Origin: Asanoa iriomotensis
Lineage (GTDB): Bacteria > Actinomycetota > Actinomycetes > Mycobacteriales > Micromonosporaceae
Direction: 5' to 3'
NCBI RefSeq assembly: GCF_016862515.1
Contig: NZ_BONC01000073.1
Location: 1 to 36,399, forward strand
DNA: 36,399 nt
In this document: piece after piece, positions 1,232 to 17,479 of the stretch
Layout: every line of letters starts with the position of its first letter
How positions within the stretch are numbered: the first letter of the stretch is position 1
The notes under the pieces: model-generated
The model's input: the letters and a program-made list of their open reading frames with translations, nothing else
Told to the model about the DNA's origin: nothing
The model's database searches: none
Made by a program: the position numbers and the translations under genes

Positions 1232-3301
1232 TTGGCGGTCACGACGGTTCCACCCGACGACGACGTCCGCCGGCCGCAGCTCACCCGGCGCCAGATCAAC
1301 GTCATCTACGGCACGGTCGCGCTCGGGCTGCTGCTCGCGGCGATGGACCAGACCGTGGTCGCGACCGCCCTGCCCACGATCGTCGGTGATCTCGGCGGCG
1401 CCAACCATCTGTCCTGGGTGGTCACCGCCTACCTGCTCACCCAGACCGTGGCCGCCGCGCTCGCCGGCAAGTTCGGCGATCAGTTCGGCCGCAAGCGGAT
1501 CTTCCAGGTCAGCGCCCTGATCTTCATCGTCGGCTCGCTGTTGTGCGGCGCCGCACAGAGTCTGATCTGGCTCGTCACCTCCCGCGCCGTCCAGGGCATC
1601 GGCGCCGGCGGGCTGCTGGTCACCGCCACCGCGCTCATCGGCGACGTGATCCCCCTCCGCGACCGGGGCCGCTACCAGGGCGGCCTCGGCGCCGTCTTCG
1701 GTCTCGCCACCGTGGTCGGCCCGCTGATCGGCGGCCTGTTCACCGACAGCGGCCTCGGCTGGCGCTGGGTCTTCTACATCAACGTCCCGCTCGCCATCCT
1801 GGTCATCCTGGTCGCGGCCCGCACGATCCCGGCGATCACCAGCGACCGGCGGCCGATCATCGACTACACCGGCATCGTGCTGATCGGCACCGGCGCGGCC
1901 GGGCTGACGCTCGCGACGAGTTGGGGCGGCACCGAGTACGCCTGGACCTCCCCGGTGATCATCGGGCTGTTCGCGGTGTCCGTCGCGCTGCTGGTCGCCT
2001 TCGGCTTCGCCGAGCGCCGCGCCAAGGAGCCCGTGCTGCCCATCCGGCTCTTCCAGTCGCGCGTCTTCGTGGTGTCGTCCGCGCTCAGCTTCGTCGTCGG
2101 CTTCACCCTGCTCGGCGCGCTCACCTTCCTGCCCACGTACCTCCAATGGGTCCAAGGTGTCTCCGCGACGGTCTCCGGCGTACGCACGCTGCCGCTCGTG
2201 ATCGGTCTGCTGGTCACGGCGGTGCTGGCCGGCAACACGGTCAGCCGGACGGGCCGCTACAAGGCCTTCCCGATCGCCGGCGGCCTGGTCATGGCGCTCG
2301 GGCTCTACCTGCTGTCGAGGATGGGCACCGACACGTCCGTCATGGTCACGTCGCTCTACATGTTCGTGTTCGGCGTCGGGATCGGCCTGTCCATGCAGAT
2401 CCTGATCATCATCGTGCAGAACACGGTCGCGTACCGGGACCTCGGCGTCGCCACCTCGGGCGTGACGTTCCTGCGCACCCTGGGCAGCTCGTTCGGCGCG
2501 GCCGTGTTCGGCACGATCTTCGCCAACCAGCTCAACGAGCACCTGACCGCCGCGCTGCGCCAGGTGGGCCCGCTGCCACCCCACGTCGTCGGCCTGCCGA
2601 CCGCGGTGCACAACCTGCCACCGGCACAATCAGGACCGATCATCGAGGCGTACGCGCAGTCGGTGCACAGCCTCTTCCTCTACGCGGTGCCGGTGCCGCT
2701 GGTCGCCTTCGCGCTCGCCTGGTTCCTCAAGGAGGTGCCACTGCGCGACATGGCCCGGGCCGCCGCACCCGACCTCGGCGAGGGCTTCGGGATGCCGGAG
2801 GCGCAGAGCTCCGACGGCGAGCTGGAGAAGGCGATCTCCCGGGTGTTCCGCAGCGAGGGACCGGCCGCCGCACCGACCGTGCTGGCGGCGTCCGGCACCG
2901 GCCTGAACCCCGCCGACGCCTGGTGCCTGGCCCAGATCCACCTGCGTACCCGATATGCCGGACCCATCGACCTGGCCGGCATCGGCCGCGCCTTCGAGAT
3001 ACCCGGCCCGGTGCTGCGGCCCGCGTTCGCCCAGGCGGCCTGGCGCGGCCTGGTCGCCATCGACGACGACGAGTGCCTGAGCCTGACCGGGCGCGGCGAG
3101 GAGTACTACGCCCAGCTCGCCGAGGCGTGGAAGAACTGGCTGCTCACCAAGCTCCCGGAACGCGACGGCCAGCGACCGACCCGCGCCGACCTGGACCGCG
3201 CCCTCAGCAACATCGCCACCCGACTCGTCGACAACCAGGGCACCCGTCCGCCGGGTCCGACCGCCGCGGTCGGACCACCGAGCGGGAGGATGGGGGGATG
3301 A
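1232..3301 (+). CDS. DHA2-family MFS drug exporter with C-terminal winged-helix-like domain
   Basis: A 689-residue proton-driven exporter of the EmrB/QacA (DHA2, 14-helix) family. It starts with TTG at 1232 behind GGGGG (1221-1225). The motif AAMDQTVVATALPTIV lies in the first helix, GDQFGRKR in the loop after helix 2 and a VxGPLIGG-type motif C in helix 5. The membrane part ends near residue 515. The remaining ~172 residues are cytoplasmic: residues about 559-640 read like a MarR-type winged helix (helical DLAGIGRAF segment, helix LRPAFAQAAWRGLVA, then a wing DDDECLSLTGRG and a long helix). The stop overlaps the next start as ATGA (3298-3301), so the dehydrogenase gene is translationally coupled. 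The substrate is unknown. Confidence 0.9.
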   Translation: MAVTTVPPDDDVRRPQLTRRQINVIYGTVALGLLLAAMDQTVVATALPTIVGDLGGANHLSWVVTAYLLTQTVAAALAGKFGDQFGRKRIFQVSALIFIVGSLLCGAAQSLIWLVTSRAVQGIGAGGLLVTATALIGDVIPLRDRGRYQGGLGAVFGLATVVGPLIGGLFTDSGLGWRWVFYINVPLAILVILVAARTIPAITSDRRPIIDYTGIVLIGTGAAGLTLATSWGGTEYAWTSPVIIGLFAVSVALLVAFGFAERRAKEPVLPIRLFQSRVFVVSSALSFVVGFTLLGALTFLPTYLQWVQGVSATVSGVRTLPLVIGLLVTAVLAGNTVSRTGRYKAFPIAGGLVMALGLYLLSRMGTDTSVMVTSLYMFVFGVGIGLSMQILIIIVQNTVAYRDLGVATSGVTFLRTLGSSFGAAVFGTIFANQLNEHLTAALRQVGPLPPHVVGLPTAVHNLPPAQSGPIIEAYAQSVHSLFLYAVPVPLVAFALAWFLKEVPLRDMARAAAPDLGEGFGMPEAQSSDGELEKAISRVFRSEGPAAAPTVLAASGTGLNPADAWCLAQIHLRTRYAGPIDLAGIGRAFEIPGPVLRPAFAQAAWRGLVAIDDDECLSLTGRGEEYYAQLAEAWKNWLLTKLPERDGQRPTRADLDRALSNIATRLVDNQGTRPPGPTAAVGPPSGRMGG

Positions 3302-5905: not shown

Positions 5906-7162
5906 ATGGGTACGGGCGCCGCCTCGGTCGAGGCCGTCTTCCGCGAGGAGTGGGGGCGACTGTTGGCGGCGCTCGTCCGTACCCTGGGCGATCTTGATCT
6001 CGCCGAGGAGGTCGCCGCCGACGCGGTGGCCGCCGCCGTGGCCCGGTGGCCGAAGGACGGTGTGCCCGACCGGCCGGGCGCGTGGCTGCTCACGGTGGCC
6101 CGGCACCGGGCGGTCGACCTGCTCCGGCGCGACAAGGTGTTCGCGGCGAAGCTGGCGCTGCTGCAGGTCGAGGCCGACCGCCGGGACAGCGCGCCGGCCG
6201 TCGATCCGGTGTGGAGCGACGACGCGCCCGACGAGCGGCTGCGGCTGTTCTTCACCTGCTGCCACCCGTCACTCGGCCTCGACGCCCAACTGGCGCTGAC
6301 CTTGACGTGCCTGGCCGGGCTGACCACGCCCGAGGCCGCGCGGGCGTTCCTGGTGCCGCCCGCGACGATGGCGCAGCGCGTGGTGCGGGCGAAACGCAAG
6401 ATCCGCGACGCCCGGATCCCGTTCCGGGTGCCGTCCGCGGCCGAGTTGCCCGACCGGCTCCCGGCGGTGCTGCGGGTGGTCTATCTGATCTTCACCGAGG
6501 GGTACGCGGCGACCGGCGGCTCGACCCTCGTCCGCGGCGACCTGGCCGACGAGGCGGTGCGGCTGGCCCGGATCCTGCACCGGCTGCTGCCGGGCGAGCG
6601 GGAGGTGGCCGGGCTGCTCGCGCTGATGCTGCTGGTCGACGCGCGCCGGCCGGCCCGGGTCGACCTGGCGGGGCGGCTGGTGCTGCTGGAGGACCAGGAC
6701 CGTTCACTGTGGTCGCTCGACAAGATCGTCGAGGGGCGGCGGCTGGTAGTCGAGGCGCTGACCGGCGGCCCGCCCGGCCCGTACGCCCTGCAAGCCGCGA
6801 TCGCCGCCGTGCACGACGACGCCGCGTCGGTCTCGACCACCGACTGGCCGCAGGTGGTGGCCCTCTACGACGTGCTCCGCGAGGTCGCGCCGTCACCGCT
6901 GGTCGAGCTCAACCGCGCGGTCGCGGTGGCCATGGTGGACGGTCCCGAGGCCGGGCTGGCCCTGCTGGACGGCCTCGTCCTCGATCGGCGGCTGGCCGGC
7001 TACCACCTGCTCCCGGCGGCCCGGGCCGACCTGCTGCGCCGGCTGGGCCGCACCTCGGAGGCGGCTGCCGCTTATCGGGCGGCGCTCGAGTTGGTCGGCA
7101 ACGACCCCGAGCGGGACTATCTGGCCCGGCGGCTCGAATCGCTACGATCGCCCGATGATTGA
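5906..7162 (+). CDS. ECF42-group RNA polymerase sigma factor with C-terminal TPR-like extension
   Basis: A 418-residue sigma factor, twice the size of an ordinary ECF sigma. Residues about 10-75 are region 2 (FREEWGRLL to [10 protein letters not shown]) and about 110-170 region 4 ([13 protein letters not shown] to RAKRKIRDA). The rest matches the DUF6596/TPR-like extension of ECF42: TEGYAATGG, then helical pairs ending in [15 protein letters not shown]. No anti-sigma gene is adjacent, as is usual for this group, where the extension is thought to control activity. Its partner is the upstream DGPF gene, whose promoter carries the expected motif. The AGGAG next to ATG is closer than usual, so a start a few codons later is possible. 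The last 8 nt overlap trmO. Confidence 0.93.
7143..7148 (+). promoter_or_regulatory. possible -10 box TACGAT of a leaderless trmO promoter
   Basis: TACGAT ends 6 nt before the trmO ATG and lies inside the last codons of the sigma-factor gene. It would allow trmO to be expressed without ECF42 activity. Confidence 0.35.
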
Positions 7163-7559
7163 GATCTCCCCGATCGGGGTCGTCTCCTCTCCGCTGGTCT
7201 CGGCCGCGAGCGCGCCCCGGCAGGGCGACGAGGGCGCGCCGGACGCGTGGCTGGAGTTCGACGCCGCGGTCGCGACCGGTCTTGCCGACCTCGCGCCCGG
7301 CCAGGAGGTGCTGGTGCTGACCTGGTTCGACCGGGCTGCCCGGGACGTGCTGGCGGTGCGCCCGCGGGGTGACGCCGACCGCCCGCTGACGGGGGTGTTC
7401 AGCACCCGCTCGCCGGACCGCCCGAACCCGATCGGCCTGCACCGGGTCACGGTCCTTGAGATCGACGGGCTGCGGGTCAAGGTCAACAACCTGGAGGCTC
7501 TCGACGGTACGCCGATCGTCGACGTGAAGCCGGTCCTCGGCGGTGTCGCCGAACGTTGA
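7155..7559 (+). CDS. trmO: tRNA (N6-threonylcarbamoyladenosine37-N6)-methyltransferase TrmO
   Basis: A 134-residue SAM-dependent enzyme of the TsaA/YaeB family that adds a methyl group to t6A37 in tRNA-Thr. The family signature [17 protein letters not shown] (82-98) is complete, and the opening IEISPIGVV and closing [11 protein letters not shown] are typical of the beta-barrel domain. The E. coli enzyme has an extra C-terminal domain that is absent here, as in many actinobacterial and archaeal homologues. Its ATG lies 8 nt inside the sigma gene. Its stop is part of the -35 hexamer of the next promoter. Confidence 0.88.
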
Positions 7560-7586
7560 CCTCAACCTGGGTTGAGGTGTGATCCT
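7556..7586 (+). promoter_or_regulatory. MerR/SoxR-type promoter with an 18-bp palindrome
   Basis: TTGACC (-35, 7556-7561) and GATCCT (-10, 7581-7586) are separated by 19 bp, the over-long spacing typical of MerR-activated promoters. The spacer region holds CCTCAACCTGGGTTGAGG (7560-7577), whose outer half-sites CCTCAA/TTGAGG and 6-nt centre are the same as in the SoxR box. The -10 lies 7 nt before the ATG at 7594. An almost identical element is at 16093-16123. Confidence 0.7.
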
Positions 7587-7593
7587 TCGTCGC

Positions 7594-8538
7594 ATGCGAG
7601 TCGTGTGGTTGACGCAGTACGGCGACCCGACGGTCCTGGCACCGGGTTCGGCGCCGGACCCGGTGCCCTCGCCGGGTCAGGTGCTGGTGGACGTGGCGTT
7701 CGCCAACATCACCTTCATCGAGACGATGTTCCGCTCGACGGGCTTCGGCCCCTACCAGGGCTCACTGCCGATGGTCCCTGGAAACGGGGTCGGCGGAGTG
7801 GTGAGCGAGGTCGGCGCGGACGTCGACCCGTCGCTGGTCGGCGCGCGGGTGGTGACCTCGACCGGCGGCTCGGGCGCCTACGCGTCCCGAGTCGCGGTTG
7901 ACGCCGCGGGCCTGGTGCCGGTGCCCGACGGCCTCGCCCTGGACACGGCCGTGGCGTTGCTCGCCGACGGGCGCACGGCGCTGCTGCTGCTGCGCGCGGT
8001 GGGGCCGAAACCCGGCGAACGGGTCCTGGTCGAGGCTGCGGCCGGCGGGGTCGGCACGCTGCTGGTCCAACTCGCGAAGGCAACGGGCGCGACGGTGCTC
8101 GGCGCCGCAGGCCCGGCGAAGCTGGGCCTCGTCGGCTCGCTGGGCGCGGACGAGGCAGTCGACTACACGGCCCCGGGTTGGGCGGCGGCCGCAGGCCCGT
8201 TCGACGCGGTCTTCGACGGCGTGGGCGGCGCGGTGGCCCGCGCCGCGTTCGACCAACTGACCCGCGGCGGCCGAATGATCAGCTATGGCCTGTCGAGCGG
8301 CGCGTGGTCGGACGTCACGGACGACGAGGCTGCCGCTCGCGGCGTGACCCTGCTCAGGGGCGCCACCGGCACCCCTGAGGAACTGCGCGCCCTGACAGCC
8401 GAGGCTCTGCGGCTCGCAGCCGCCGGCCGCCTGCGCCCGGTGATCGGCCAACGCTTCCCGCTGGAACAGGCCGCCGCCGCCCACGCGGCGATCGAGTCCC
8501 GCTCCACAGTAGGCAAGACCCTGCTGGTCGTGGACTAG
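7594..8538 (+). CDS. zinc-free medium-chain NADPH:quinone oxidoreductase
   Basis: A 314-residue medium-chain dehydrogenase/reductase of the quinone oxidoreductase branch. The GroES-like N-terminal domain reads PGNGVGGVV (62-70) where zinc alcohol dehydrogenases have the GHE zinc site, so catalytic zinc is absent. The Rossmann domain has AAAGGVGTLLVQLAK (148-162). It likely reduces quinones or reactive enones with NADPH. I prefer ATG at 7594 over GTG at 7579 because GTG lies inside the MerR-type promoter, upstream of the expected transcript start; the mRNA would then be leaderless. Control by a SoxR-like regulator suits a quinone reductase. Convergent with the next gene. Confidence 0.9.
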   Translation: MRVVWLTQYGDPTVLAPGSAPDPVPSPGQVLVDVAFANITFIETMFRSTGFGPYQGSLPMVPGNGVGGVVSEVGADVDPSLVGARVVTSTGGSGAYASRVAVDAAGLVPVPDGLALDTAVALLADGRTALLLLRAVGPKPGERVLVEAAAGGVGTLLVQLAKATGATVLGAAGPAKLGLVGSLGADEAVDYTAPGWAAAAGPFDAVFDGVGGAVARAAFDQLTRGGRMISYGLSSGAWSDVTDDEAAARGVTLLRGATGTPEELRALTAEALRLAAAGRLRPVIGQRFPLEQAAAAHAAIESRSTVGKTLLVVD

Positions 8539-8542
8539 CGTC

Positions 8543-8558
8543 AGCCCCGATCAGGGCT
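8543..8558. terminator. short hairpin between convergent genes
   Basis: AGCCC (8543-8547) pairs with GGGCT (8554-8558) around a 6-nt loop. It overlaps the stop of the minus-strand gene. The stem is short, so its role as a terminator is tentative. Confidence 0.3.
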
Positions 8559-9330
8559 TCGTGGCGGAAGGTAGCCATTCCGCGAAGGTTGGGCCGCGGA
8601 GGACCGCGTCCGGGCCCGGGAGGATGGCTGGGCTGTTGATGGCTCGGCCGGTCCTGCCCGGTAGGCGCACCGGGATCACCGTGCGGCGGTCGCCGCGGGC
8701 GCGGGACAGTTGGCGGGCCAGGTCCGGGAGGCGCTCCGGGCGTGGGCCGGCGATGTCCGGCACCCGGCCGCGCGGACCGTCCTCGACCACCTCGGCGAGC
8801 GCCCGGCCGACCTCGGCCGCCGCGACCGGCTGGGTCATCATCTGCGGCACCAGCGCGAACCGGCCGAACCGCAACTGGTCCATCGTCTGGCCCGCGAACT
8901 CGTGGAACTGCGTCGCCCGCAGCACCGTGGCCGGCACCGGGCCGTGCATGGCCGCCTGCTCCTGCGCCAGTTTGCCCGCGTAGTAGCCCAGCGGCACCTT
9001 GTCGACGCCCACGATGCTGAGCACCACGTGGTGCTTCACGCCGGCCTCCGAGGCGAGTCGGCCGAGCAGGGTCGTGGTCGCGCTGAACCAGCGGACCGCC
9101 GTCGACCTGGACATCGTGGCGACGTTCGCGCAGTCGACCACACAGTCCACGCCCGCCAGCGCCTTGTCCAGGCCGGCGCCCGTGGTGAGGTCGCCCTGGA
9201 ACGACTCCGTGCCGGCCGGGCCCGCCGTGCCGCCACGGCTGAGGATCGCGACCTGGTGGCCGCGCTGGGACAGTGCGCTCGCGGTGGGTCGTCCGACCAC
9301 GCCCGAGCCTCCGATGACGAGTACGCGCAT
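8551..9330 (-). CDS. NAD(P)H-binding NmrA-like/atypical SDR protein
   Basis: A 259-residue extended/atypical short-chain dehydrogenase. It opens with RVLVIGGSGVVGRPTASAL (GxxGxxG dinucleotide site at 7-13), then GDLTTGAGLDKALAGVDCVVDCAN, the usual strand-helix pattern of NmrA and complex-I-NDUFA9-like sugar-nucleotide-binding proteins. YYAGK occupies the position of the SDR YxxxK. It may be a reductase or a redox-sensing binding protein. ATG at 9330 is chosen because it immediately precedes the Rossmann strand; the frame extends 23 codons upstream with no family similarity. No clear ribosome binding site. Confidence 0.82.
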   Translation of the reverse strand: MRVLVIGGSGVVGRPTASALSQRGHQVAILSRGGTAGPAGTESFQGDLTTGAGLDKALAGVDCVVDCANVATMSRSTAVRWFSATTTLLGRLASEAGVKHHVVLSIVGVDKVPLGYYAGKLAQEQAAMHGPVPATVLRATQFHEFAGQTMDQLRFGRFALVPQMMTQPVAAAEVGRALAEVVEDGPRGRVPDIAGPRPERLPDLARQLSRARGDRRTVIPVRLPGRTGRAINSPAILPGPDAVLRGPTFAEWLPSATKP

Positions 9331-9435
9331 GAACTCACGACGAGACAGCCACCGCCGAACGTGACGGCGGATGGCGCCGGTCACACGGGAACCGGCCACC
9401 CACCGCGCGGCTCGTCACCAGCGGAGGTGGCGAAC

Positions 9436-10122
9436 ATGTCGAAAATCCTGCGTCACATGCTCGCGGCGGCCCTGCTCGCGGTGACCGTCGGCGCGATCGC
9501 CGCGCCGAGCCCGGCCCGTGCCGGTGGCTGGGCGGCGACGGTCCTGGAGCCGATGCCGGCCACGCTGCAGCCCGGGCAGACGTACACCGTGGGCATGTGG
9601 GTCCTGCAACACGGTTTCCATCCTTACGAAGGCAAGCTCGACGAGGTCGCGCTGCGACTGGTCGACGCCAAGGGCGTCGAGACGAAGTTCCCCGCGGTGG
9701 CGCTGCCGGAGCCGGCGCACTACGCGGTGTCCGTCGTGCTCCCGCATGACGGGCCGTTCACCGTGGTCGGCATCCAGGGCTGGTTCGCGCCGTACGAGAT
9801 CGGCACGCTCAGCGCGAAGCAAGGCCTCCGGCAGCTGCCGACGGTGACCCCGCTGACGAAGGAACACCTGGCCGAGTACTGGTCCGGCCCGGTCAAGCCG
9901 CCGGTGCTCCCGGTCGACGAGCGCCGCGACCCGTTCGTGGCCGCCGCCGCACCGCCGCCGGTCGACGAGGTCGTCGAGGCCGCGCCGGTCGCCAACACCA
10001 CACCGGATTCGGGTGCTTCCCCGTGGTTGGCCGTCGTCGCCGGCGCCACGGCGCTCGTCCTGGTCGGTTCGGTCCTCCTGGGCCGCCGGCGGCTCGGCAT
10101 CCCGCACCGCACCAACCCGTAG
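9436..10122 (+). CDS. secreted, C-terminally membrane-anchored YtkA/CopC-like beta-sandwich protein
   Basis: A 228-residue exported protein. It has a signal peptide (1-29, cleavage after SPARA), an Ig-like beta domain (about 30-135) and a Pro/Ala-rich linker (150-195). A C-terminal helix PWLAVVAGATALVLVGSVLL (196-215) is followed by basic GRRRLG, so it should be anchored with its domain outside. The opening GGWAATVLEPMPATLQPGQTYTVGMWVLQHG resembles the GGWA..TLxxLP proteins of the FixH/YtkA type found near copper and cytochrome genes; that match is from memory and moderate. GGAGGTGG (9423-9430) is a good ribosome binding site. A strong inverted repeat follows the stop. Confidence 0.75.
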   Translation: MSKILRHMLAAALLAVTVGAIAAPSPARAGGWAATVLEPMPATLQPGQTYTVGMWVLQHGFHPYEGKLDEVALRLVDAKGVETKFPAVALPEPAHYAVSVVLPHDGPFTVVGIQGWFAPYEIGTLSAKQGLRQLPTVTPLTKEHLAEYWSGPVKPPVLPVDERRDPFVAAAAPPPVDEVVEAAPVANTTPDSGASPWLAVVAGATALVLVGSVLLGRRRLGIPHRTNP

Positions 10123-10132
10123 CGGGCCGCGT

Positions 10133-10167
10133 CTTCCGCGGGGGATCATGAGGATCCCCCGCGGAAG
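10133..10167 (+). terminator. perfect 15-bp inverted repeat, terminator or attenuator
   Basis: CTTCCGCGGGGGATC (10133-10147) is the exact complement of 10153-10167, with a 5-nt loop. It starts 10 nt after the upstream stop. There is no T tract, as is common in high-GC actinobacterial terminators. The 3' arm contains the first part of the GGAAGGAA ribosome binding site of the next gene, so a read-through transcript would hide that site. Confidence 0.7.
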
Positions 10168-10178
10168 GAACGGCGCCG

Positions 10179-10787
10179 ATGATCCTCGACTGGCCGGACT
10201 GCACCAACGTGCGCGACCTCGGTGGCCTCACCACCACCGACGGCCGGCGGGTCCGAGCTGGAGCGCTGCTCCGGGCCGACTGCCTCGACCGGCTGACCCC
10301 CGCTGCGGTCGCGGACATCCGGGCGGGCGGCATCCGCCGGATCGTCGACCTGCGCTGGGCGCTCGAATGCGCCCTGCGCCCGAACCCGTTCGAGGGCGAC
10401 CCGCTCTACACGCACGCGCCGATGCTCGGCGACGACGACTACGACTTCCTGCCCGACAGCTACGGCGCGATGCTGGAGCACAACCGCCCACAGATCGGCG
10501 CGGCGTTCCGCGCGGTCGCGGAAGCACCACCCGGCGGCGTGCTGGTGCACTGCCTGGAGGGCAAGGACCGCACGGGCGTCCTGGTCGCCCTCCTGCTGCT
10601 GGTCGCGGGCGTCCCACACGACCAGATCGCCGACGACTACGCCCTGACGAGGGGCGTCGACCGCCAACTGATGGCCAACACCCTGGACTACCTGCACGAC
10701 GCACACGGCGAGGTGGCCAAATACCTGGCCGACTGCGGCGTCGACGCGGAAGCCCTCGCAGCGGTCCGCGCCCGCCTCGTCGACTAG
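10179..10787 (+). CDS. tyrosine/lipid phosphatase of the HCxxGKDRTG type
   Basis: A 202-residue single-domain phosphatase with the P-loop VHCLEGKDRTGV: nucleophile Cys125 and phosphate-binding Arg131. The lysine and aspartate in the loop (GKDRTG) are the signature of the MptpB/LipA-type dual-specificity phosphatases that act on phosphotyrosine, phosphoserine/threonine and phosphoinositides. The N-terminal TNVRDLGGLTT is also characteristic. The partner is unknown. The ribosome binding site GAAGGAA is partly inside a strong hairpin, so translation probably depends on initiation downstream of, or melting of, that structure. Confidence 0.9.
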   Translation: MILDWPDCTNVRDLGGLTTTDGRRVRAGALLRADCLDRLTPAAVADIRAGGIRRIVDLRWALECALRPNPFEGDPLYTHAPMLGDDDYDFLPDSYGAMLEHNRPQIGAAFRAVAEAPPGGVLVHCLEGKDRTGVLVALLLLVAGVPHDQIADDYALTRGVDRQLMANTLDYLHDAHGEVAKYLADCGVDAEALAAVRARLVD

Positions 10788-10810
10788 CAGCGGTGGCCTG
10801 GGTTGGCCGG

Positions 10811-10816
10811 TAGCGT
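10811..10816 (+). promoter_or_regulatory. -10 box TAGCGT of a leaderless promoter
   Basis: TAGCGT ends exactly 7 nt before the ATG at 10824; no ribosome binding site is present. Confidence 0.5.
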
Positions 10817-10823
10817 GGCCCGC

Positions 10824-11354
10824 ATGGAGATCGGCGCCCTGGCCAGTGCGTTCCTCGTCGGTGTCGCGTCCGGTGGGCGGAGCATGACCGGGCTCGCGGC
10901 GATCGCCCTGACCACCCGCCCGGGCACGGCCTCCCCTGTCCTGGACCGCGCGGCAACCGCGCCGGGCCGGGCCGTGCTCACGGTCGCGGCCGCCGGTGAA
11001 CTGGTCGGCGACAAGCTGCCCAACACGCCCAGCCGGCTGTTGCCCCTGGGCCTGTCCAGCCGGGTCGCGGCCGGAGCGGCCGGCGGTGCGGCGCTGGCGC
11101 TGCGGTCCCGGGGCAACCCCGGTCTCGCCGCCGTGTGCGGCGGGGTCGGTGCGGTCGCGGGCAGCTACGCCGGCGCGACCTGGCGCCGCTGGGCGGGCAC
11201 CGAGCGGGTCACCGCCTTCGCCGCCGCGGTCACCGAGGACCTGCTCACCGTCGCCACCGCGGTGCTCGCCTGCGCTCTGGCCCCGCAGCGGGACGTATCG
11301 GCGTCGGGTCGTAGTCGTAGAGCCAGCCTGTGGCGCGTTCGTAGAAACGGTTGA
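10824..11354 (+). CDS. DUF4126-like small membrane protein
   Basis: A 176-residue protein with four or so hydrophobic, Gly/Ala-rich segments and the pattern GVASGGRSMTGLAA near the N-terminus and AAAGELVGDKLPNTPSR in the middle. Both are typical of DUF4126-type integral membrane proteins of unknown function. ATG at 10824 fits a leaderless promoter; an upstream TTG at 10803 is unlikely. The last ~22 residues (Arg/Ser-rich) are encoded by the reverse of the neighbouring monooxygenase gene: the two convergent frames overlap by 110 nt. The family core probably ends near LACALAPQ, so the tail may be a consequence of a lost stop codon. Confidence 0.75.
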   Translation: MEIGALASAFLVGVASGGRSMTGLAAIALTTRPGTASPVLDRAATAPGRAVLTVAAAGELVGDKLPNTPSRLLPLGLSSRVAAGAAGGAALALRSRGNPGLAAVCGGVGAVAGSYAGATWRRWAGTERVTAFAAAVTEDLLTVATAVLACALAPQRDVSASGRSRRASLWRVRRNG

Positions 11355-12438
11355 AGAACACGGACATGCCGATCTCCGCGAGTCGGCGGCGGAGCGGGCC
11401 CGCCTGTTTGACCTCGCGGTTGTCGTCCGATGCCCGCAGCACGCGCGTCACCCGGCCGCGGCGGGCGGCCTCGTACCCGATCAGTCCCTCATGGACAGAC
11501 GTTGTGGCGCCGATCGAGGCTCCCAGGGCCACACCGTCCTCGATCGCCATCGACGCGCCCTGGCCGGCGCCGAGTGGGTGGGCCGCGTCGCCGACCAGGA
11601 CCGTGCGGTCGTCGTGCCAGACCCGGACCGGGTCGAGGACGTGGTTGACGCTCGGCCGGTGCAGCCGGGTCGTGGCCGCGATGATCTGCCGGGCGACCGG
11701 CTCCGCCGCATAGAGGTCGTCCAGCAGCCGCAGGCGCTCGGCGTCGGCCAGGGACGGCGGCGGTGGCTCGGCGGCGTTTACCTGCGCCTGCCACCACACC
11801 TCGCCCCCGCCGGCCGGCTCGACGTGGATGAACGCGCCGTGCGCGCCGACCGTCATGTTGAAGGTGCCCTCGCTGCTCGCGTCGCACACGACCGGCGAGC
11901 GGCCCGAGATCACCCAGACGCCCGCATAACGCGGCGTCGGCGCCGCCGGGTCCAGCGCGCGGCGGACCACGGATCGGATGCCGTCGGCGCCGACCACCAG
12001 GTCGCCGGTCTCGACCCGGCCACCGGCGAAGCGAGCGCGGCCGTCGGGCTCGACCGCCACGAGCCGCTCCCCCGTGCGCAGTTCGACGCCGGCCTCCTCG
12101 GCCGCCGCCCGCAGCTCACCGACGAGATGGCCGCGCATCAGCGTGACACTGTGGAGCGGGTCGCCGGCCCGCCGGCCGCGTGGCACGTCGGCGATCGGGC
12201 GTCCCTTGGCCGTCCACATCCGCTGCCGGGCGATCGCCCAACCACGCGCCCGCACCCGCTCGAGGCAGTCGACCGCCGCCAGGCCGCGCAACCCGTTGAC
12301 CGCCAGGCTGACGAACGAGCCGACCTCGCCACCCGGATCGGGATGCGCCTCGAACAGGGTGACCTCCGCGCCCGTCCGCCGCAGCGCCAGCGCGCTCACG
12401 GTGCCCGCCACTCCCCCGCCGACGACCAGAACCCGCAT
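11245..12438 (-). CDS. FAD-dependent monooxygenase (group A flavoprotein hydroxylase)
   Basis: A 397-residue PHBH-fold flavoenzyme. Motifs in order: GGGVAG dinucleotide site (7-12), DG motif VVGADGIRSVVR (about 148-159) and the GD motif VLVGDAAHPLGAGQGASMAIEDG (about 286-308). It is expected to hydroxylate an aromatic or polyketide substrate with NAD(P)H and O2, or to inactivate a drug, as TetX does. A TetR gene lies just upstream on the same strand, with a double palindrome in the 78-nt gap, so the regulator probably represses this gene. The C-terminus (PAAGPERRRAPRWRR) reads into the convergent DUF4126 gene and looks like an extension past the family end. Confidence 0.9.
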   Translation of the reverse strand: MRVLVVGGGVAGTVSALALRRTGAEVTLFEAHPDPGGEVGSFVSLAVNGLRGLAAVDCLERVRARGWAIARQRMWTAKGRPIADVPRGRRAGDPLHSVTLMRGHLVGELRAAAEEAGVELRTGERLVAVEPDGRARFAGGRVETGDLVVGADGIRSVVRRALDPAAPTPRYAGVWVISGRSPVVCDASSEGTFNMTVGAHGAFIHVEPAGGGEVWWQAQVNAAEPPPPSLADAERLRLLDDLYAAEPVARQIIAATTRLHRPSVNHVLDPVRVWHDDRTVLVGDAAHPLGAGQGASMAIEDGVALGASIGATTSVHEGLIGYEAARRGRVTRVLRASDDNREVKQAGPLRRRLAEIGMSVFFNRFYERATGWLYDYDPTPIRPAAGPERRRAPRWRR

Positions 12439-12456
12439 CGCGATCCCCCGAACCTC

Positions 12457-12479
12457 GATTCACTGAATCTCGATTCAGT
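12457..12479. promoter_or_regulatory. double TetR-type operator upstream of the monooxygenase
   Basis: Two overlapping palindromes: GATTCACTGAATC (12457-12469, 1-nt centre) and ACTGAATCTCGATTCAGT (12462-12479, perfect 8-bp arms, 2-nt centre). Together they give three alternating half-sites of GATTCA/TGAATC, about 20-40 nt before the monooxygenase start. The size and position suit binding by the adjacent TetR protein, possibly as two dimers. Confidence 0.7.
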
Positions 12480-12516
12480 ATTTGTCGTGAGCCGCCACCG
12501 CGTCAAGCGCGACGTG

Positions 12517-13074
12517 TCAGCGCAGGTCCGCGCGCGCCAGCTCGCCGAACAGCTCCATCGCGGCGTCCACTTCGGTCCGCTCGCCGCTCATCAGCAGGTC
12601 GAGCCCCAGCCCGCGGGTCACCGCCAGCCCGAGCCGCGCGTACGCGTCGGCCCGGCGCCCAGGAATGCCCGCCCGCCGGAACAGCTCGGCGAGCGGCTCC
12701 TCCCAGGCCCGGATCACCGACTCCCGAAACGCAGCCGTCCACTCACGACCGTAGAGCGCCTGCACGTACACCTCGAAGAACAGCCGCTGCGCGGGCAGCA
12801 CCTCCGGGCTGGTCAGCTGCGCCCAGAACGCGGCCGAGACGGCGAAGATGTCCGCGTCGTCGGTGACCAGGTCGGCGAGCAGCGCCCGCTGCGCGGCCTC
12901 CATCCGGCCGACGACCTCGGCGAGCAGCCCGTCCCGCGAGCCGAAGTGATAGATGAGCATCCGGTGGCTGGTGCCCGCTTCGGCCGCGATCTCGCGCAGG
13001 CTCAGGTGGCTGAACCCGTGCCGGCGCACGACCTCGAAGCACCGGTCGAGCAGCGTCTCGCGGGCGGCGCTCAC
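12517..13074 (-). CDS. TetR-family transcriptional regulator
   Basis: A 185-residue repressor. The N-terminal helix-turn-helix SHLSLREIAAEAGTSHRMLIYHFGSR (22-47) is canonical; the rest is an all-helical ligand-binding domain of the type TetR_C-like with LFFEVYVQALYG and LGLDLLMSGE. It starts with GTG at 13074, overlapping the SRPBCC stop as GTGA (13071-13074), so the two are co-translated. It is the obvious candidate to bind the palindromes at 12457-12479 and 13495-13512, which would give control of the monooxygenase and of its own operon. The two palindromes differ in sequence, so one protein may not bind both. Confidence 0.92.
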   Translation of the reverse strand: MSAARETLLDRCFEVVRRHGFSHLSLREIAAEAGTSHRMLIYHFGSRDGLLAEVVGRMEAAQRALLADLVTDDADIFAVSAAFWAQLTSPEVLPAQRLFFEVYVQALYGREWTAAFRESVIRAWEEPLAELFRRAGIPGRRADAYARLGLAVTRGLGLDLLMSGERTEVDAAMELFGELARADLR

Positions 13075-13496
13075 CCGCGTGCTTCGCTCGCGGCCTTGAG
13101 CCCGGCCACCTCGAGCGAGAGATAGCGCCGGTTGCGCCGGCCGAAGAGCAGGTGCAGCAGGCCGGCGAGCGGCCCGGTCTGCTCGAGCTCCAGCGTGATC
13201 ACCGTGGCGCCGTCGCCGGAGGATCGGAGAAGGTGGCGGCCGGTCGTGCGTACACCTGGCGAGTGGTTCGTCCACGAGAACTCGGCCTCGTCGGTGAACG
13301 TGGTGACCTCCCACACCAGGGGCTGCATGCCGGGCTGTTTGATCCGGGCCTTGCTGCCGAGCCGCAGCGGGCCGTCGTCTAGCCGCTCGACCGAGGTCAT
13401 CGAGCGCGTCCAGCGCGGCCAGTCGGTCACGTCGCGCAGCACCGCCCAGGCGGCACCGAGGTCGGCCCGCGCTTCGGCGCTGGTGGTCAGCATCAT
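13071..13496 (-). CDS. SRPBCC (START/Bet v1-like) family protein
   Basis: A 141-residue helix-grip protein. Landmarks are the opening strand and helix with [18 protein letters not shown] (16-33), strands with [17 protein letters not shown] and [18 protein letters not shown], and the long C-terminal helix. Such proteins bind hydrophobic ligands or act as polyketide cyclases; next to a FAD monooxygenase it could bind the same substrate. Start is at the ATG 13496 (a second ATG follows directly); no ribosome binding site is seen. TACCAT lies 7 nt upstream on the minus strand, so initiation is probably leaderless. An 18-bp palindrome overlaps both the start codon and this -10. Confidence 0.83.
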
Positions 13497-13512
13497 GTAC
13501 CAGATGGTACAT
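13495..13512. promoter_or_regulatory. 18-bp palindrome over the SRPBCC-TetR promoter and start codon
   Basis: ATGTACCAGATGGTACAT has perfect 8-bp arms and a 2-nt centre. On the minus strand it contains TACCAT 7 nt before the start codon, so a bound repressor would cover the transcription start. The divergent rnhA promoter is only a few bases away and could also be affected. Confidence 0.6.
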
Positions 13513-13516
13513 CCCG

Positions 13517-13522
13517 TAGGGT
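13517..13522 (+). promoter_or_regulatory. -10 box TAGGGT of the leaderless rnhA promoter
   Basis: TAGGGT ends 7 nt before ATG 13530. This supports that ATG rather than the upstream in-frame GTG at 13521, which overlaps the box. Confidence 0.55.
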
Positions 13523-13529
13523 GCCCGGC

Positions 13530-13979
13530 ATGAGCGTGGACATCTGGACGGACGGCGCCTGCAGCGGCAACCCGGGACCGGGCGGCTGGGGAGCGCTGCT
13601 GCGCTACGGCACGGTCGAGAAGGAGCTGTGCGGCGGCGAGGCGACCGCGACCACCAACAACCGGATGGAGCTGATGGCGCCGATCAGCGCGCTGGAGAGC
13701 CTCACCCGTCCGGTGGTCGTCCGGCTGCACACGGACAGCGTCTACGTCCGCGACGGCATCACGAAATGGCTGCCGCGCTGGAAGGCCAACGGCTGGCAGA
13801 CCGCAGCCAAGACCCCGGTCAAGAACGTCGACCTGTGGCAGCGGCTGGAGGCGGCGATGGGCGCGCACGAGGTGAGCTGGCACTGGGTGAAGGGCCACTC
13901 CGGACACCCGGAGAACGAGCGCGCCGACCGCCTGGCCAACCGGGGAATGCGCGAGGCCCGCGAGGCCGCCATCCACTAG
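13530..13979 (+). CDS. rnhA: ribonuclease HI
   Basis: A 149-residue RNase H1 that cleaves the RNA strand of RNA:DNA hybrids. The DEDD active site is complete: Asp8 ([14 protein letters not shown]), Glu47 (NNRMELMA), Asp69 (LHTDSVYV) and Asp133 (NERADRLAN). His123 in VKGHSGHP is the usual catalytic loop histidine. Length and motifs match the E. coli type with a full basic handle ([21 protein letters not shown]). The gene is divergent from the SRPBCC-TetR operon and read from a leaderless promoter. The stop sits in CTAGCTAG (13976-13983), beside the convergent small membrane-protein gene. Confidence 0.96.
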
Positions 13980-13989
13980 CTAGCGGCCG

Positions 13990-14154
13990 TCACCGGCTCG
14001 CGTCCACCGCCCACTCGACCACCGGCCCGACCGGCACCGGCGAGTAGTCCGCCACCGCCGGCAGCCGCCCGAGCACACCACCCGCGGTCATCCCCAGCAG
14101 CGCCAACAGCAGCAGTCCCGCGACTCGGATGCCCACTGTGGATCGTCCGCCCAT
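13990..14154 (-). CDS. small single-span membrane or secreted protein
   Basis: A 54-residue protein: basic start MGGRSTVGIR, one hydrophobic helix VAGLLLLALLGMTAGGVLG (11-29) and a short polar tail ADYSPVPVGPVVEWAVDASR. It is credible as a gene because GGGGGAG lies 5 nt before the ATG and no other gene occupies the interval. Function is not recognisable. The helix may be a membrane anchor or an uncleaved signal. The gene is divergent from the snapalysin-like protease, with a 208-nt intergenic region holding both promoters. Confidence 0.55.
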   Translation of the reverse strand: MGGRSTVGIRVAGLLLLALLGMTAGGVLGRLPAVADYSPVPVGPVVEWAVDASR

Positions 14155-14362
14155 CACCGCTCCCCCAGCCGAAATCGCGAACCCGTCAGCAACCACTCTC
14201 CCGGCCGGGCCGGTCCGGGTCACTGCCGCAGGTACCCCAACCAGAGGTAGTGCCCGCCCTACCATCGCGCCGCGGTAGGGCCCCTTTGCGATGACGCTCG
14301 AATCGACACTCCTCGATAGGCTACGGCGGCAGCCCCGTCCCCGCCCCCACGAGGAGACCCCG

Positions 14363-14902
14363 ATGGCGCTACGCCGCAGACTCTCCACCCTCATCCTGAT
14401 CGCCGCCGCACTGGTCGGCGCGCAACTGGCCACGGCCGGCGTCGCACAGGCCGCGGTCCGGGTGCTCTACTACGACGTCAGCCAGGCGCAGGAGTTCCAG
14501 CAGGTGGCCCGCCAGGGCGCGCTGAACTGGAACAGCCGGGTGACCAACGTCCGCCTGGAGCCCGTGCCGGCCGGCCGCACACCCAACATCCGCGTGTACG
14601 CGGACAACGGCTGGCCCCGCGCGTACACCCAGTCGCTCGGCAACGGCTACTGGATCATGGGTCGCCAGGCGGTCAACGAGGGCTACTACCAGCCGCGCAT
14701 CTCCACACACGAGTTCGGCCACCTGCTCGGCCTGCCCGACCGCCGCACCGGGCTCTGCAGCGACCTGATGTCGGGCAGCAGCGCGCCGGTCTCCTGCACG
14801 AACGCGTTCCCGAACAGCCGCGAAGCGACCGAGGTCAACAACCGCTTCGCGTCACTGACCTCGGCACCCGCACGCGAGTTCGTCTGGCAGCCGGCCGCGT
14901 AG
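14363..14902 (+). CDS. snapalysin-type (M7) extracellular zinc metalloprotease
   Basis: A 179-residue secreted protease. The signal peptide covers 1-30 (basic MALRRR, hydrophobic core, cleavage near VAQA). The zinc motif HEFGHLLGLPD gives ligands His116 and His120, catalytic Glu117 and third ligand Asp126, which is the HExxHxxGxxD form that defines the small M7 snapalysins of Streptomyces rather than the third-His metzincins. Two Cys (132, 145) may form a disulfide. GAGGAG (14351-14356) is the ribosome binding site. TAGGCT (14317-14322) is a plausible -10. Streptomyces snpA is driven by a divergent LysR activator; no such gene is here. Confidence 0.88.
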   Translation: MALRRRLSTLILIAAALVGAQLATAGVAQAAVRVLYYDVSQAQEFQQVARQGALNWNSRVTNVRLEPVPAGRTPNIRVYADNGWPRAYTQSLGNGYWIMGRQAVNEGYYQPRISTHEFGHLLGLPDRRTGLCSDLMSGSSAPVSCTNAFPNSREATEVNNRFASLTSAPAREFVWQPAA

Positions 14903-14910
14903 CAGCCGAC

Positions 14911-14956
14911 GACGGGAAGTGCGGGCGCGGCAAACCGGCCGCGCCCGCTCCCCGTC
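14911..14956. terminator. bidirectional terminator hairpin
   Basis: A perfect 11-bp stem (14921-14931 with 14938-14948, 6-nt loop) is extended by GACGGG/CCCGTC (14911-14916 with 14951-14956) across a small internal loop. It lies between the convergent protease and TIM-barrel genes and overlaps the stop codon of the latter. Confidence 0.75.
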
Positions 14957-15941
14957 AGAACTTCAGGTTGGCGAGGTAGTTGTAACCGACCCGGGCCGTG
15001 TCGATCGCCAGTGCCGGCTGGCGCGGCGGGGTGCCCGCGTCGTCGCGTTCCACGATGAACTCGTCGATGCCCGCTTCCCTGCCGTGCTGGAAGATCCGGG
15101 CGAAGTCGATCAGGCCGTCGCCGACGTCGGCGAACGAGCCGGCGTCGTTCATGTCCTTGACGTGGAACTGCTGGATCCGCCCGCGGTTGGCGCGGATCAC
15201 GTCGACCGGGTCGTGCGCACCGCGGGTGACCCAGAACAGGTCGACCTCGAGGTGCACCAGGTCGGGATCGGTCTCGTTGGTGAGGATGTCGAAACCGGTG
15301 GTGGTGCCACCGTCGAGCCGGAAGAACTCGAAGTGGTGGTTGTGGTAGCCGAACCGCAGCCCGGCCTTCTTGGCCAGCGCGCCGGCCTTGTTGAGGTCGC
15401 GGGCGAAGGCCCGGTAGGTCGCCGAGTCGCGGATGATGCCGTTGGCGCCGACGCCGAAGAACGGGTGGACGATGTAGCGCTGGCGCAGCAGCCGCGCGTC
15501 GGCCAGCGCGGCGTTCCACGCGGCGGCGTCGAACGGCTGCGGGATGCCGACGTGGCCCGAGGTCGCCCGCAGCCCCACGGCGTCGAGGGCGGCCTTGAAC
15601 TGGGCGGCGGTGCGGCCGACGAAACCGGCGTGCTCGACCCGGGTGTAGCCGATGTCGGCTAGCGCCCGCAGCGTGCCGGGCAGGTCGGCGGCGAGTTGGT
15701 CACGCAGGGTGTAGAGCTGCACGCTGATCTGGTCGCGCGGCACCCGGCCGGACTTGCCGCCGCCACGCGACGCGGCGCTCGCGGGGCCCGCACCGGCGGC
15801 CAGGCCGCCCACGGCGCCGACGGCCCCCGCCGCCGCAGCGACGGTCGCGGCCCGCAGCGCACCGCGCCGGGTCAGGGTGTGCAGTTGCTCCTCCGCCAGC
15901 GGCGCGACGTTCTGGTGTGCTTCGTGGTCGTTGACGCACAT
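14955..15941 (-). CDS. Tat-exported sugar phosphate isomerase/epimerase-like TIM barrel protein
   Basis: A 328-residue protein of the xylose-isomerase-like TIM barrel family. The N-terminus has a twin-arginine motif TRRGALRAATVAAAAG (24-39) and a cleavable signal ending near GPASA, so it is exported folded. The barrel starts at ISVQLYTLRDQLAADLPGTL and carries likely metal ligands in YHNHHFEF (His and Glu), VHLEVDLFWV (Glu/Asp), QFHVKDM (His) and IVERDD (Glu). Similar exported proteins work in soil sugar and inositol-type breakdown; substrate unknown. AGGAGG lies 9 nt before the ATG; an upstream in-frame ATG at 15986 lacks family similarity. A LacI-like palindrome is in the promoter. Confidence 0.85.
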   Translation of the reverse strand: MCVNDHEAHQNVAPLAEEQLHTLTRRGALRAATVAAAAGAVGAVGGLAAGAGPASAASRGGGKSGRVPRDQISVQLYTLRDQLAADLPGTLRALADIGYTRVEHAGFVGRTAAQFKAALDAVGLRATSGHVGIPQPFDAAAWNAALADARLLRQRYIVHPFFGVGANGIIRDSATYRAFARDLNKAGALAKKAGLRFGYHNHHFEFFRLDGGTTTGFDILTNETDPDLVHLEVDLFWVTRGAHDPVDVIRANRGRIQQFHVKDMNDAGSFADVGDGLIDFARIFQHGREAGIDEFIVERDDAGTPPRQPALAIDTARVGYNYLANLKF

Positions 15942-15981
15942 GGATGAATGCCTCCTGGGCGTTCGGGACGGAAACTCGACC

Positions 15982-15993
15982 AGCATCGATGCT
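15982..15993. promoter_or_regulatory. 12-bp palindrome, LacI-type operator candidate
   Basis: AGCATCGATGCT is a perfect palindrome with the central CG typical of LacI-family operators. It lies right after TTGACC on the minus strand (15995-16000), inside the expected promoter of the sugar isomerase-like gene. No lacI-type gene is in the window. Confidence 0.45.
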
Positions 15994-16092
15994 CGGTCAA
16001 GTTACCGCGCTCCGCACGTCGAGAGGAAGATCTCTTGACGCGATCTGCCGGCGGTCAGGCACCCGGAGCAGGGGTCCAGCGTCGAATTTCGA

Positions 16093-16123
16093 TTGACCTC
16101 AAGCGGGGTTGAGGTCCGATCAT
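16093..16123 (+). promoter_or_regulatory. MerR/SoxR-type promoter with an 18-bp palindrome
   Basis: TTGACC (16093-16098) and GATCAT (16118-16123) with 19-bp spacing; the palindrome CCTCAAGCGGGGTTGAGG spans 16097-16114. Its outer half-sites and layout are the same as in the element at 7556-7586. The -10 ends 6 nt before the GTG start of the exporter. Confidence 0.7.
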
Positions 16124-16129
16124 CGTGCG

Positions 16130-17479
16130 GTGACTGCCACCGCCACCGAACCACGCGCCCATCTTTTCGACCGCCGGTACGCGCTGGCCACCGCGGGCTC
16201 GACCAGCCTGGTGTTCCTCGCCGCCTTCGAGGCGCTCGCGGTCACCACGGTGATGCCGACCATCACCGCCGAGCTGGACGGCCGTGCGCTCTACTCGCTC
16301 GCGTTCGTGGCCACGACGGCGACCGGCGTGGTCGGTCTGGTCGTCTCCGGCGCGTGGTCCGACCGGCGCGGGCCCCGGCTGGCGCTGCTCACCGCGATCG
16401 GCGTCTTCGCGCTGGGCCTGGCCGTCGCCGGCACGGCGCCCACGATGCCGGTCTTCGTCGCCGGTCGGCTGTTGCAGGGCCTCGGCGCCGGTGGCATCAC
16501 GGTCGCGCTCTACGTGCTGGTCGCGGCCGTCTACCCGGCCGCGCTGCACCCGCGGATCTTCGGGCTGTTCGCCGCCGCCTGGGTGGTGCCCTCGATGGTC
16601 GGGCCGTTCGTCGCCGGGCTGGTGGCCGACGTGTGGAGCTGGCACTGGGTCTTCCTCGGCGTGCTCGTGCTGGTCGGCGCCGCGACCCTGATCACCCTGC
16701 CGGTGCTGCGCGGCGCGCTGCCCACCGGCGACCCGGCGGCGGCCCTGGACGGCAGGCGGATCGCGGCCGCGGTCGTCGTCGCGACCGGCGCGGTCACGGC
16801 CGGGCTGGCCAGCGATCTGGCCGACGCGCGCGGCTGGCTGCTCGCCGCGGTGGCGATCGCCGCCGTGGTGATCACCGTCCGCCGCCTGGTGCCGCCCGAC
16901 ACCTTCCGGGCGCGGCCAGGCCTGCCCGCCACGGTTCTGCTGAGCGCGGCCGCCGGCGCCACCTTCTTCAGCACGGAGGTCTACCTGCCGCTGCTGCTGC
17001 ACGACCGGTACGGGCTGCCGAGCTGGCTCTCCGGTTTCACGCTGACGGTCGGTGCGATCTCCTGGGCCGCCGGGTCGCACGTGCAGGGCCGCCTGGGTGA
17101 GCGGTGGACCGACGCGGCCGTGATGCGGCTGGGCGCGCTGTTCCTGGCCGCGGGCGCCGCCGCCGAGCTCGCGACCGCGCTGCTCACCCCGCACTGGCTG
17201 TTCGTCGGCGTCGGCTGGCTGCTGGCCGGCGGCGGGATGGGGCTGATCTACCCGCGGGTGAGCACGCTCGTGCTGGCGGCGTCAGCGCCCGGGACGCAGG
17301 GGTTCAACACGGCGGCCAAGAGCATCGCCGACGTGGTCGGCGGCAGCCTCGCGCTGGCGGTCACCGGTCTGCTCTTCCAGTCGCTGGCCGGCATCGGCGC
17401 GTGGTGGTCCTTCGCCGGCACGCTGACCCTGTCGACGCTGCTCGGCGTGGCCGCCGTGCTGGTCGCCCGCCGGGTCTAG
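16130..17479 (+). CDS. MFS transporter (drug exporter type)
   Basis: A 449-residue polytopic membrane protein. It begins with a short soluble stretch and TM1 containing FEALAVTTVMPTI, then SGAWSDRRGPR (motif A) after helix 2, GRLLQGLGAGGITVALYVLV in helix 4 and a motif-C-like VVPSMVGPFVAG in helix 5, as in DHA-type exporters. GTG at 16130 is preferred to the TTG at 16109 because the latter lies inside the promoter palindrome. The mRNA should be leaderless. Control by a SoxR-like regulator would make it an exporter of redox-active compounds; that is inference. The TAG stop shares CTAG with the convergent SRPBCC gene. Confidence 0.88.
   Translation: MTATATEPRAHLFDRRYALATAGSTSLVFLAAFEALAVTTVMPTITAELDGRALYSLAFVATTATGVVGLVVSGAWSDRRGPRLALLTAIGVFALGLAVAGTAPTMPVFVAGRLLQGLGAGGITVALYVLVAAVYPAALHPRIFGLFAAAWVVPSMVGPFVAGLVADVWSWHWVFLGVLVLVGAATLITLPVLRGALPTGDPAAALDGRRIAAAVVVATGAVTAGLASDLADARGWLLAAVAIAAVVITVRRLVPPDTFRARPGLPATVLLSAAAGATFFSTEVYLPLLLHDRYGLPSWLSGFTLTVGAISWAAGSHVQGRLGERWTDAAVMRLGALFLAAGAAAELATALLTPHWLFVGVGWLLAGGGMGLIYPRVSTLVLAASAPGTQGFNTAAKSIADVVGGSLALAVTGLLFQSLAGIGAWWSFAGTLTLSTLLGVAAVLVARRV

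Follow-up and report, generated by a model that had tools for sequence, protein, structure and literature searches.

In Escherichia coli, SoxR exerts its effect by way of an intermediate regulator, SoxS. The available part of PMC4146615 refers to an intermediate factor in this context and describes the SoxR regulon of Streptomyces coelicolor, an antibiotic-producing actinomycete that serves here as a source of comparison; like the regulon proposed below for Asanoa, it consists of a few scattered soxbox genes including oxidoreductases, one of them a putative quinone oxidoreductase. In Stenotrophomonas maltophilia the MFS pump gene mfsA is under SoxR control, and its promoter, as given in the accessible text of PMC4411124, resembles the Asanoa promoters in having TTGACC and CATGCT separated by 19 bp, with CCTCAAN6TTGAGG between them.

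Two promoters of this kind are found in Asanoa iriomotensis in the window, i.e. the whole stretch of DNA that was analysed (36,399 nucleotides, contig C73 of the genome). The family of Asanoa is taken by us to be the Micromonosporaceae. The first-pass annotation had claimed an identical layout for the two promoters, both with TTGACCTCAA-N6-TTGAGGT, a 19-bp spacer and a start codon 6-7 nt past the -10 hexamer, and this is how they read. Both 23-mers equal TTGACCTCAAN6TTGAGGT with zero mismatches, the spacer is 19 bp in both cases with the palindrome placed between -35 and -10, and the window has no exact CCTCAAN6TTGAGG site besides these two boxes (Table 1). In the box 1 promoter 7 nt (7587-7593) separate the -10 hexamer from the ATG at 7594, and in the box 2 promoter 6 nt (16124-16129) separate it from the GTG at 16130. 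The stop codon (7557-7559) of the upstream TrmO-like gene (7155-7559) falls within the -35 element of box 1.

Table 1. Features of the two promoters and their downstream genes, in window coordinates.
Feature	Position	Strand	Remark
SoxR-type box 1, TTGACCTCAACCTGGGTTGAGGT	7556-7578	+	Read from sequence; contains the -35
-35 of box 1, TTGACC	7556-7561	+	Read from sequence
-10 hexamer GATCCT (box 1 promoter)	7581-7586	+	19 bp from the -35
Zinc-type quinone oxidoreductase-like gene, 314 aa, ATG at predicted +1	7594-8538	+	Pfam PF13602, PF00107, PF08240
SoxR-type box 2, TTGACCTCAAGCGGGGTTGAGGT	16093-16115	+	Read from sequence; contains the -35
-35 of box 2, TTGACC	16093-16098	+	Read from sequence
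-10 hexamer GATCAT (box 2 promoter)	16118-16123	+	19 bp from the -35
MFS exporter-like gene, 449 aa, GTG at predicted +1	16130-17479	+	Pfam PF07690

The naming of the two downstream genes as a quinone reductase and an MFS exporter stands, at the "-like" level, by their Pfam matches, and the genes are unlinked as described earlier, being separated by about 8.5 kb in which both strands carry likely genes. The quinone oxidoreductase-like protein reaches the cut-off of none of the 18 NCBIfam models listed, TIGR02824 (PIG3 family) being its best match, and the MFS protein is under the cut-off of the NCBIfam models among the best 25 of 36. Orthologs of the MFS protein are found in the five other Asanoa genomes (5/5) with 82-91% identity; the best among named records are from Asanoa siamensis (91%), A. 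ishikariensis (83%) and A. hainanensis (82%). The window also encodes a second MFS exporter-like protein of 689 aa (1232-3301, start codon uncertain), which has no upstream CCTCAAN6TTGAGG match at up to three mismatches within the window, and a Na+/H+ exchanger with a C-terminal match to the zf-UBP zinc finger (33430-34902).

The search of the genome for CCTCAA-N6-TTGAGG that had been suggested gave four exact sites in 8.57 Mb, in a search that tallies each palindrome on both strands, and none for the reversed-pattern control. The full 23-mer TTGACCTCAAN6TTGAGGT was also found exactly four times, against 4.5e-5 predicted from the base composition of the window. With up to three mismatches allowed, the 23-mer gave 12 rows in the whole genome and the control gave two, while CCTCAAN6TTGAGG gave five matches in the window against a shuffle mean of 6.3, i.e. 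no excess. Because the window is at the level of the shuffles and the genome control is not empty, only close matches carry weight. The looser window matches are thus what would be expected if the palindromes had arisen by chance and had no regulatory role, but the four exact genome sites against the predicted 4.5e-5, and the exact retention of box 1 in 6/6 Asanoa genomes although its 6-nt centre drifts, leave such an origin a vanishingly small probability, and it was rejected on the genome count and the conservation.

The 23-mer of the quinone oxidoreductase promoter is exact in all six Asanoa genomes with variation in the 6-nt centre only, and its -10 hexamer is GATCCT in 6/6 orthologs. The MFS promoter has the exact 23-mer in four of the six genomes, with two mismatches in G001 and three in G005. 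Its -10 keeps its position in the orthologs and reads GATCAT in 4/6, CATCAT in G003 and CATAGT in G001. The other exact boxes of the A. iriomotensis genome precede a second zinc-type oxidoreductase (contig C8) and a short-chain dehydrogenase (C35). Boxes with two mismatches are found at an NmrA-like reductase gene divergent from soxR2 (C61) and on C106, the latter before a gene whose protein shares 69% identity with one that follows an exact box in the Asanoa genome G005; two further matches, with three mismatches, are on C25 and C116. From these sequences the C8 oxidoreductase, the C35 short-chain dehydrogenase, the C61 NmrA-like reductase and the C106 gene are candidates for further regulon members, and the quinone oxidoreductase-like and MFS exporter-like genes of this rare actinomycete genus are thereby assigned to a candidate SoxR regulon with six members. 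The start codon lies at offset 14 or 15 past the box in all six. The -10 hexamer of the C35 promoter is TTGTAT, without the usual A. At C35 (locus L002) the upstream ORF 584-1516 also ends inside the box, as at box 1.

Among 71 downstream proteins of the family set (at least 60 aa, Asanoa orthologs included), single-linkage clustering put 36 together with the quinone oxidoreductase-like protein of the window and 10 with its MFS protein, the remaining clusters having at most four members. The two genes of the window therefore represent the two largest target groups of the family set.

The proposal that both promoters answer to one SoxR-type regulator, with its gene outside the window, is well supported by comparison. 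The genome has 27 matches to the MerR_1 domain, none of them on the window contig, and two are in proteins with the SoxR cysteine cluster. The soxR search that had been recommended thus gave two SoxR equivalogs, SoxR1 on contig C41 and SoxR2 on contig C61, with 200 and 191 bits for the equivalog model TIGR01950 (cut-off 116.9). Both sequences contain a cysteine cluster of the 2Fe-2S type, and the best solved relative of both is E. coli SoxR (2zhg). Two SoxR matches are present in each of the six Asanoa genomes. A midpoint-rooted tree of 100 SoxR proteins from the family, with a bootstrap that had not settled, places SoxR1 in a clade of 55 rows and SoxR2 in a clade of 11 rows, each with a support of 100/100, and the two are read as old paralogs. 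Upstream of soxR2 a box with one or two mismatches is found in 5/5 Asanoa genomes (the soxR2 of G002 was left out), and soxR1 has no box at up to four mismatches in any of the six. On C41 (locus L010, 189-1268 and 1255-1776) soxR1 and another quinone oxidoreductase-like gene are oriented convergently, with a 14-nt overlap in the ORF list; the stretch examined around this pair contains no SoxR box at up to four mismatches.

The exact 23-mer was found in 29 of 396 Actinomycetota genomes, each at least 90% complete, and all 29 are among the 100 genomes with a SoxR match (99 over the cut-off), the lists of boxes and SoxR matches having been matched by eye. None of the 296 genomes of this sample without a SoxR match has an exact site. 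The co-occurrence has a Fisher p of 1.5e-19, a value that overstates independence, since relatedness among the genomes and their differences in size and G+C are confounders. The exact 23-mer is missing from 71 of the 100 SoxR genomes, and three of the 29 box-bearing genomes (G158, G461 and G481) have a SoxR match in which the tool counts a stop codon. In the family sample (n=121) the exact site was found in 46/110 genomes with SoxR and in 2/11 without, which is not significant (p 0.20); the two without a SoxR match are G029 (80% complete) and G079 (98% complete).

Boxes also occur next to soxR genes. Among 100 parsed soxR loci, 37 have a box with up to three mismatches within about 310 nt upstream, five of these being soxR2 of Asanoa, and no such box was found in 93 kb of sequence downstream of the same loci. 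The 101 loci (L295 remained unparsed) comprised 30 best hits, 60 hand-picked loci and 11 from Asanoa, so that 37% is no survey estimate. The upstream half-sites are altered in the three members of one SoxR clade (L290, L291 and L296), two with ACATCAA..TTGATGA and one with ACATTAA..TTGACGT, and the half-sites upstream of soxR in L305 are ACTTCAA..TTGAAGT. Such alterations possibly represent a drift of SoxR specificity.

A different member of the MerR family could in principle read the boxes in place of SoxR. Other MerR regulators also use similar long-spacer promoters, the genome has its 27 MerR_1 matches to choose from, and the 98%-complete genome G079 combines an exact site with no SoxR match. 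Against this, a box at up to four mismatches stands beside soxR2 only in the examined flanks of the 27 matches, and in the phylum sample box and SoxR go together, with boxes also preceding many soxR genes; we consider another owner very unlikely, and it was rejected on the absence of boxes from the examined flanks of the other MerR_1 matches. An approach through the recognition helix by way of PMC5045206, the available part of which covers metal-sensing MerR subfamilies, gave nothing specific to SoxR. The sites in the window are very probably SoxR boxes.

The -10 hexamer was outside the search pattern and was read for 103 distinct exact boxes, comprising 19/19 from Asanoa, 56/56 from the rest of the family sample and 28/40 further sites from the phylum. 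At the position given by a 19-bp spacer, A is found at position 2 in 97/103 and T at position 6 in 102/103, and this NANNNT at 19-bp distance fits a long-spacer promoter of the MerR type. When the coding frame was chosen by third-position G+C, 97 of the 103 boxes had a usable frame, and an in-frame ATG or GTG is found at offset 14/15 in 65 of these, starts that are non-independent because each ortholog is counted, against an average of about 2% for other single positions. By group the numbers are 16/19 for Asanoa, 30/52 for the other family genomes and 19/26 for the other phylum genomes. The 32 frames without a start at this offset include some that look like a wrong choice of frame, for example L186, where an ATG does stand at offset 15, and others that have none there. 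The leaderless mRNAs that had been predicted for the window genes fit the fixed distance from box to start, and the prediction appears to generalise, with 65/97 frames starting at the expected +1.

The accessible part of PMC3160421 describes TANNNT some 12 bp before the start as a mark of leaderless genes, and the start-site data for Mycobacterium tuberculosis in the corresponding part of PMC3898074 have TANNNT centred 7-12 bp upstream of +1. The -10 hexamers of the window begin 13 and 12 nt before the starts and are both GANNNT forms, the first T of TANNNT being absent. If SoxR binds but transcription begins further upstream or reads through from the preceding gene, the mRNAs would have leaders and the spacing of the start codons would be incidental. 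Read-through is possible at box 1, inside which the TrmO-like gene ends (stop 7557-7559), 32/97 frames have no start at offset 14/15, and mfsA of S. maltophilia has a 5' leader of 39-42 nt in the available part of PMC4411124, in contrast to the Asanoa MFS gene, which is predicted to be leaderless. The presence of a start at this one offset in 65/97 frames, when other single positions average about 2%, and the published TANNNT mark speak against leaders, which we find unlikely.

Our reading, which we hold to be highly likely as a whole, is that the two promoters are activated by SoxR, belong to a small redox-response regulon and give leaderless mRNAs. It is put at this level and no higher because it makes two claims at once, SoxR control and leaderless starts, and because in the phylum sample three of the SoxR matches contain a stop. 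We infer that an oxidised 2Fe-2S SoxR dimer, SoxR2 from C61 and/or SoxR1 from C41, would sit on the palindrome and, by the mechanism described for SoxR elsewhere, would distort the over-long 19-bp spacer such that RNA polymerase can start, with redox-cycling compounds as the activating signal. The transcription start would then coincide with the start codon to within one base, resulting in leaderless mRNAs.

Of the exact SoxR-type boxes with a usable frame in the sampled Actinomycetota, about two thirds (65/97) are at the distance expected for a leaderless mRNA. This spacing is a simple rule, open to checking, by which SoxR targets can be found and start codons corrected; it predicts that many such genes in the phylum have leaderless mRNAs under SoxR control, and it raises the question why redox-defence genes would use leaderless messages. 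The wider proposition is that in Actinomycetota the start codon stands at a rigidly fixed distance from the SoxR box, with SoxR-activated genes leaderless as a rule, and that two old SoxR paralogs coexist in the Micromonosporaceae, some clades (for example L290/L291/L296) having drifted half-sites; we give it an even chance. If it is true, the mRNAs under the control of this redox sensor are translated without Shine-Dalgarno initiation, and the altered half-sites would let SoxR paralogs run separate regulons.

The literature search, which had most subscription journals outside it, gave no leaderless statement for actinobacterial SoxR in the text that was available. The word is absent from the accessible part of PMC4146615, and in that of PMC4921905 it refers to sigE of M. 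tuberculosis, the mentions of SoxR being general. The box-to-start spacing itself is already in print for S. coelicolor, as Figure 3C of PMC4146615 gives the nucleotides to the start codons. For SoxR in Micromonosporaceae or Asanoa the same search, within the text available to it, found only a mention in a reference title (PMC5765111). What is described here is an ordinary candidate SoxR regulon with good support from sequence comparison, in a genus without one in the literature searched.

The parallel with Streptomyces drawn in the first-pass annotation is partly upheld: the oxidoreductase fits, but the transporter in the SoxR regulon of S. coelicolor is of the ABC type (SCO7008) according to the available part of PMC4146615, and the one in Asanoa is of the MFS type. 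The same text names one soxR in S. coelicolor (SCO1697), without autoregulation, whereas Asanoa has two soxR genes and a box upstream of soxR2. The mfsA gene of S. maltophilia shares its promoter region with soxR, as far as PMC4411124 was available, whereas the window with the Asanoa MFS gene has no soxR. The Asanoa box fits the E. coli SoxR box CCTCAAGTTAACTTGAGG quoted in the accessible part of that paper. SoxR1 and SoxR2 are of the same SoxR family as the E. coli protein, and where the latter works via SoxS, several direct SoxR targets are proposed for Asanoa.
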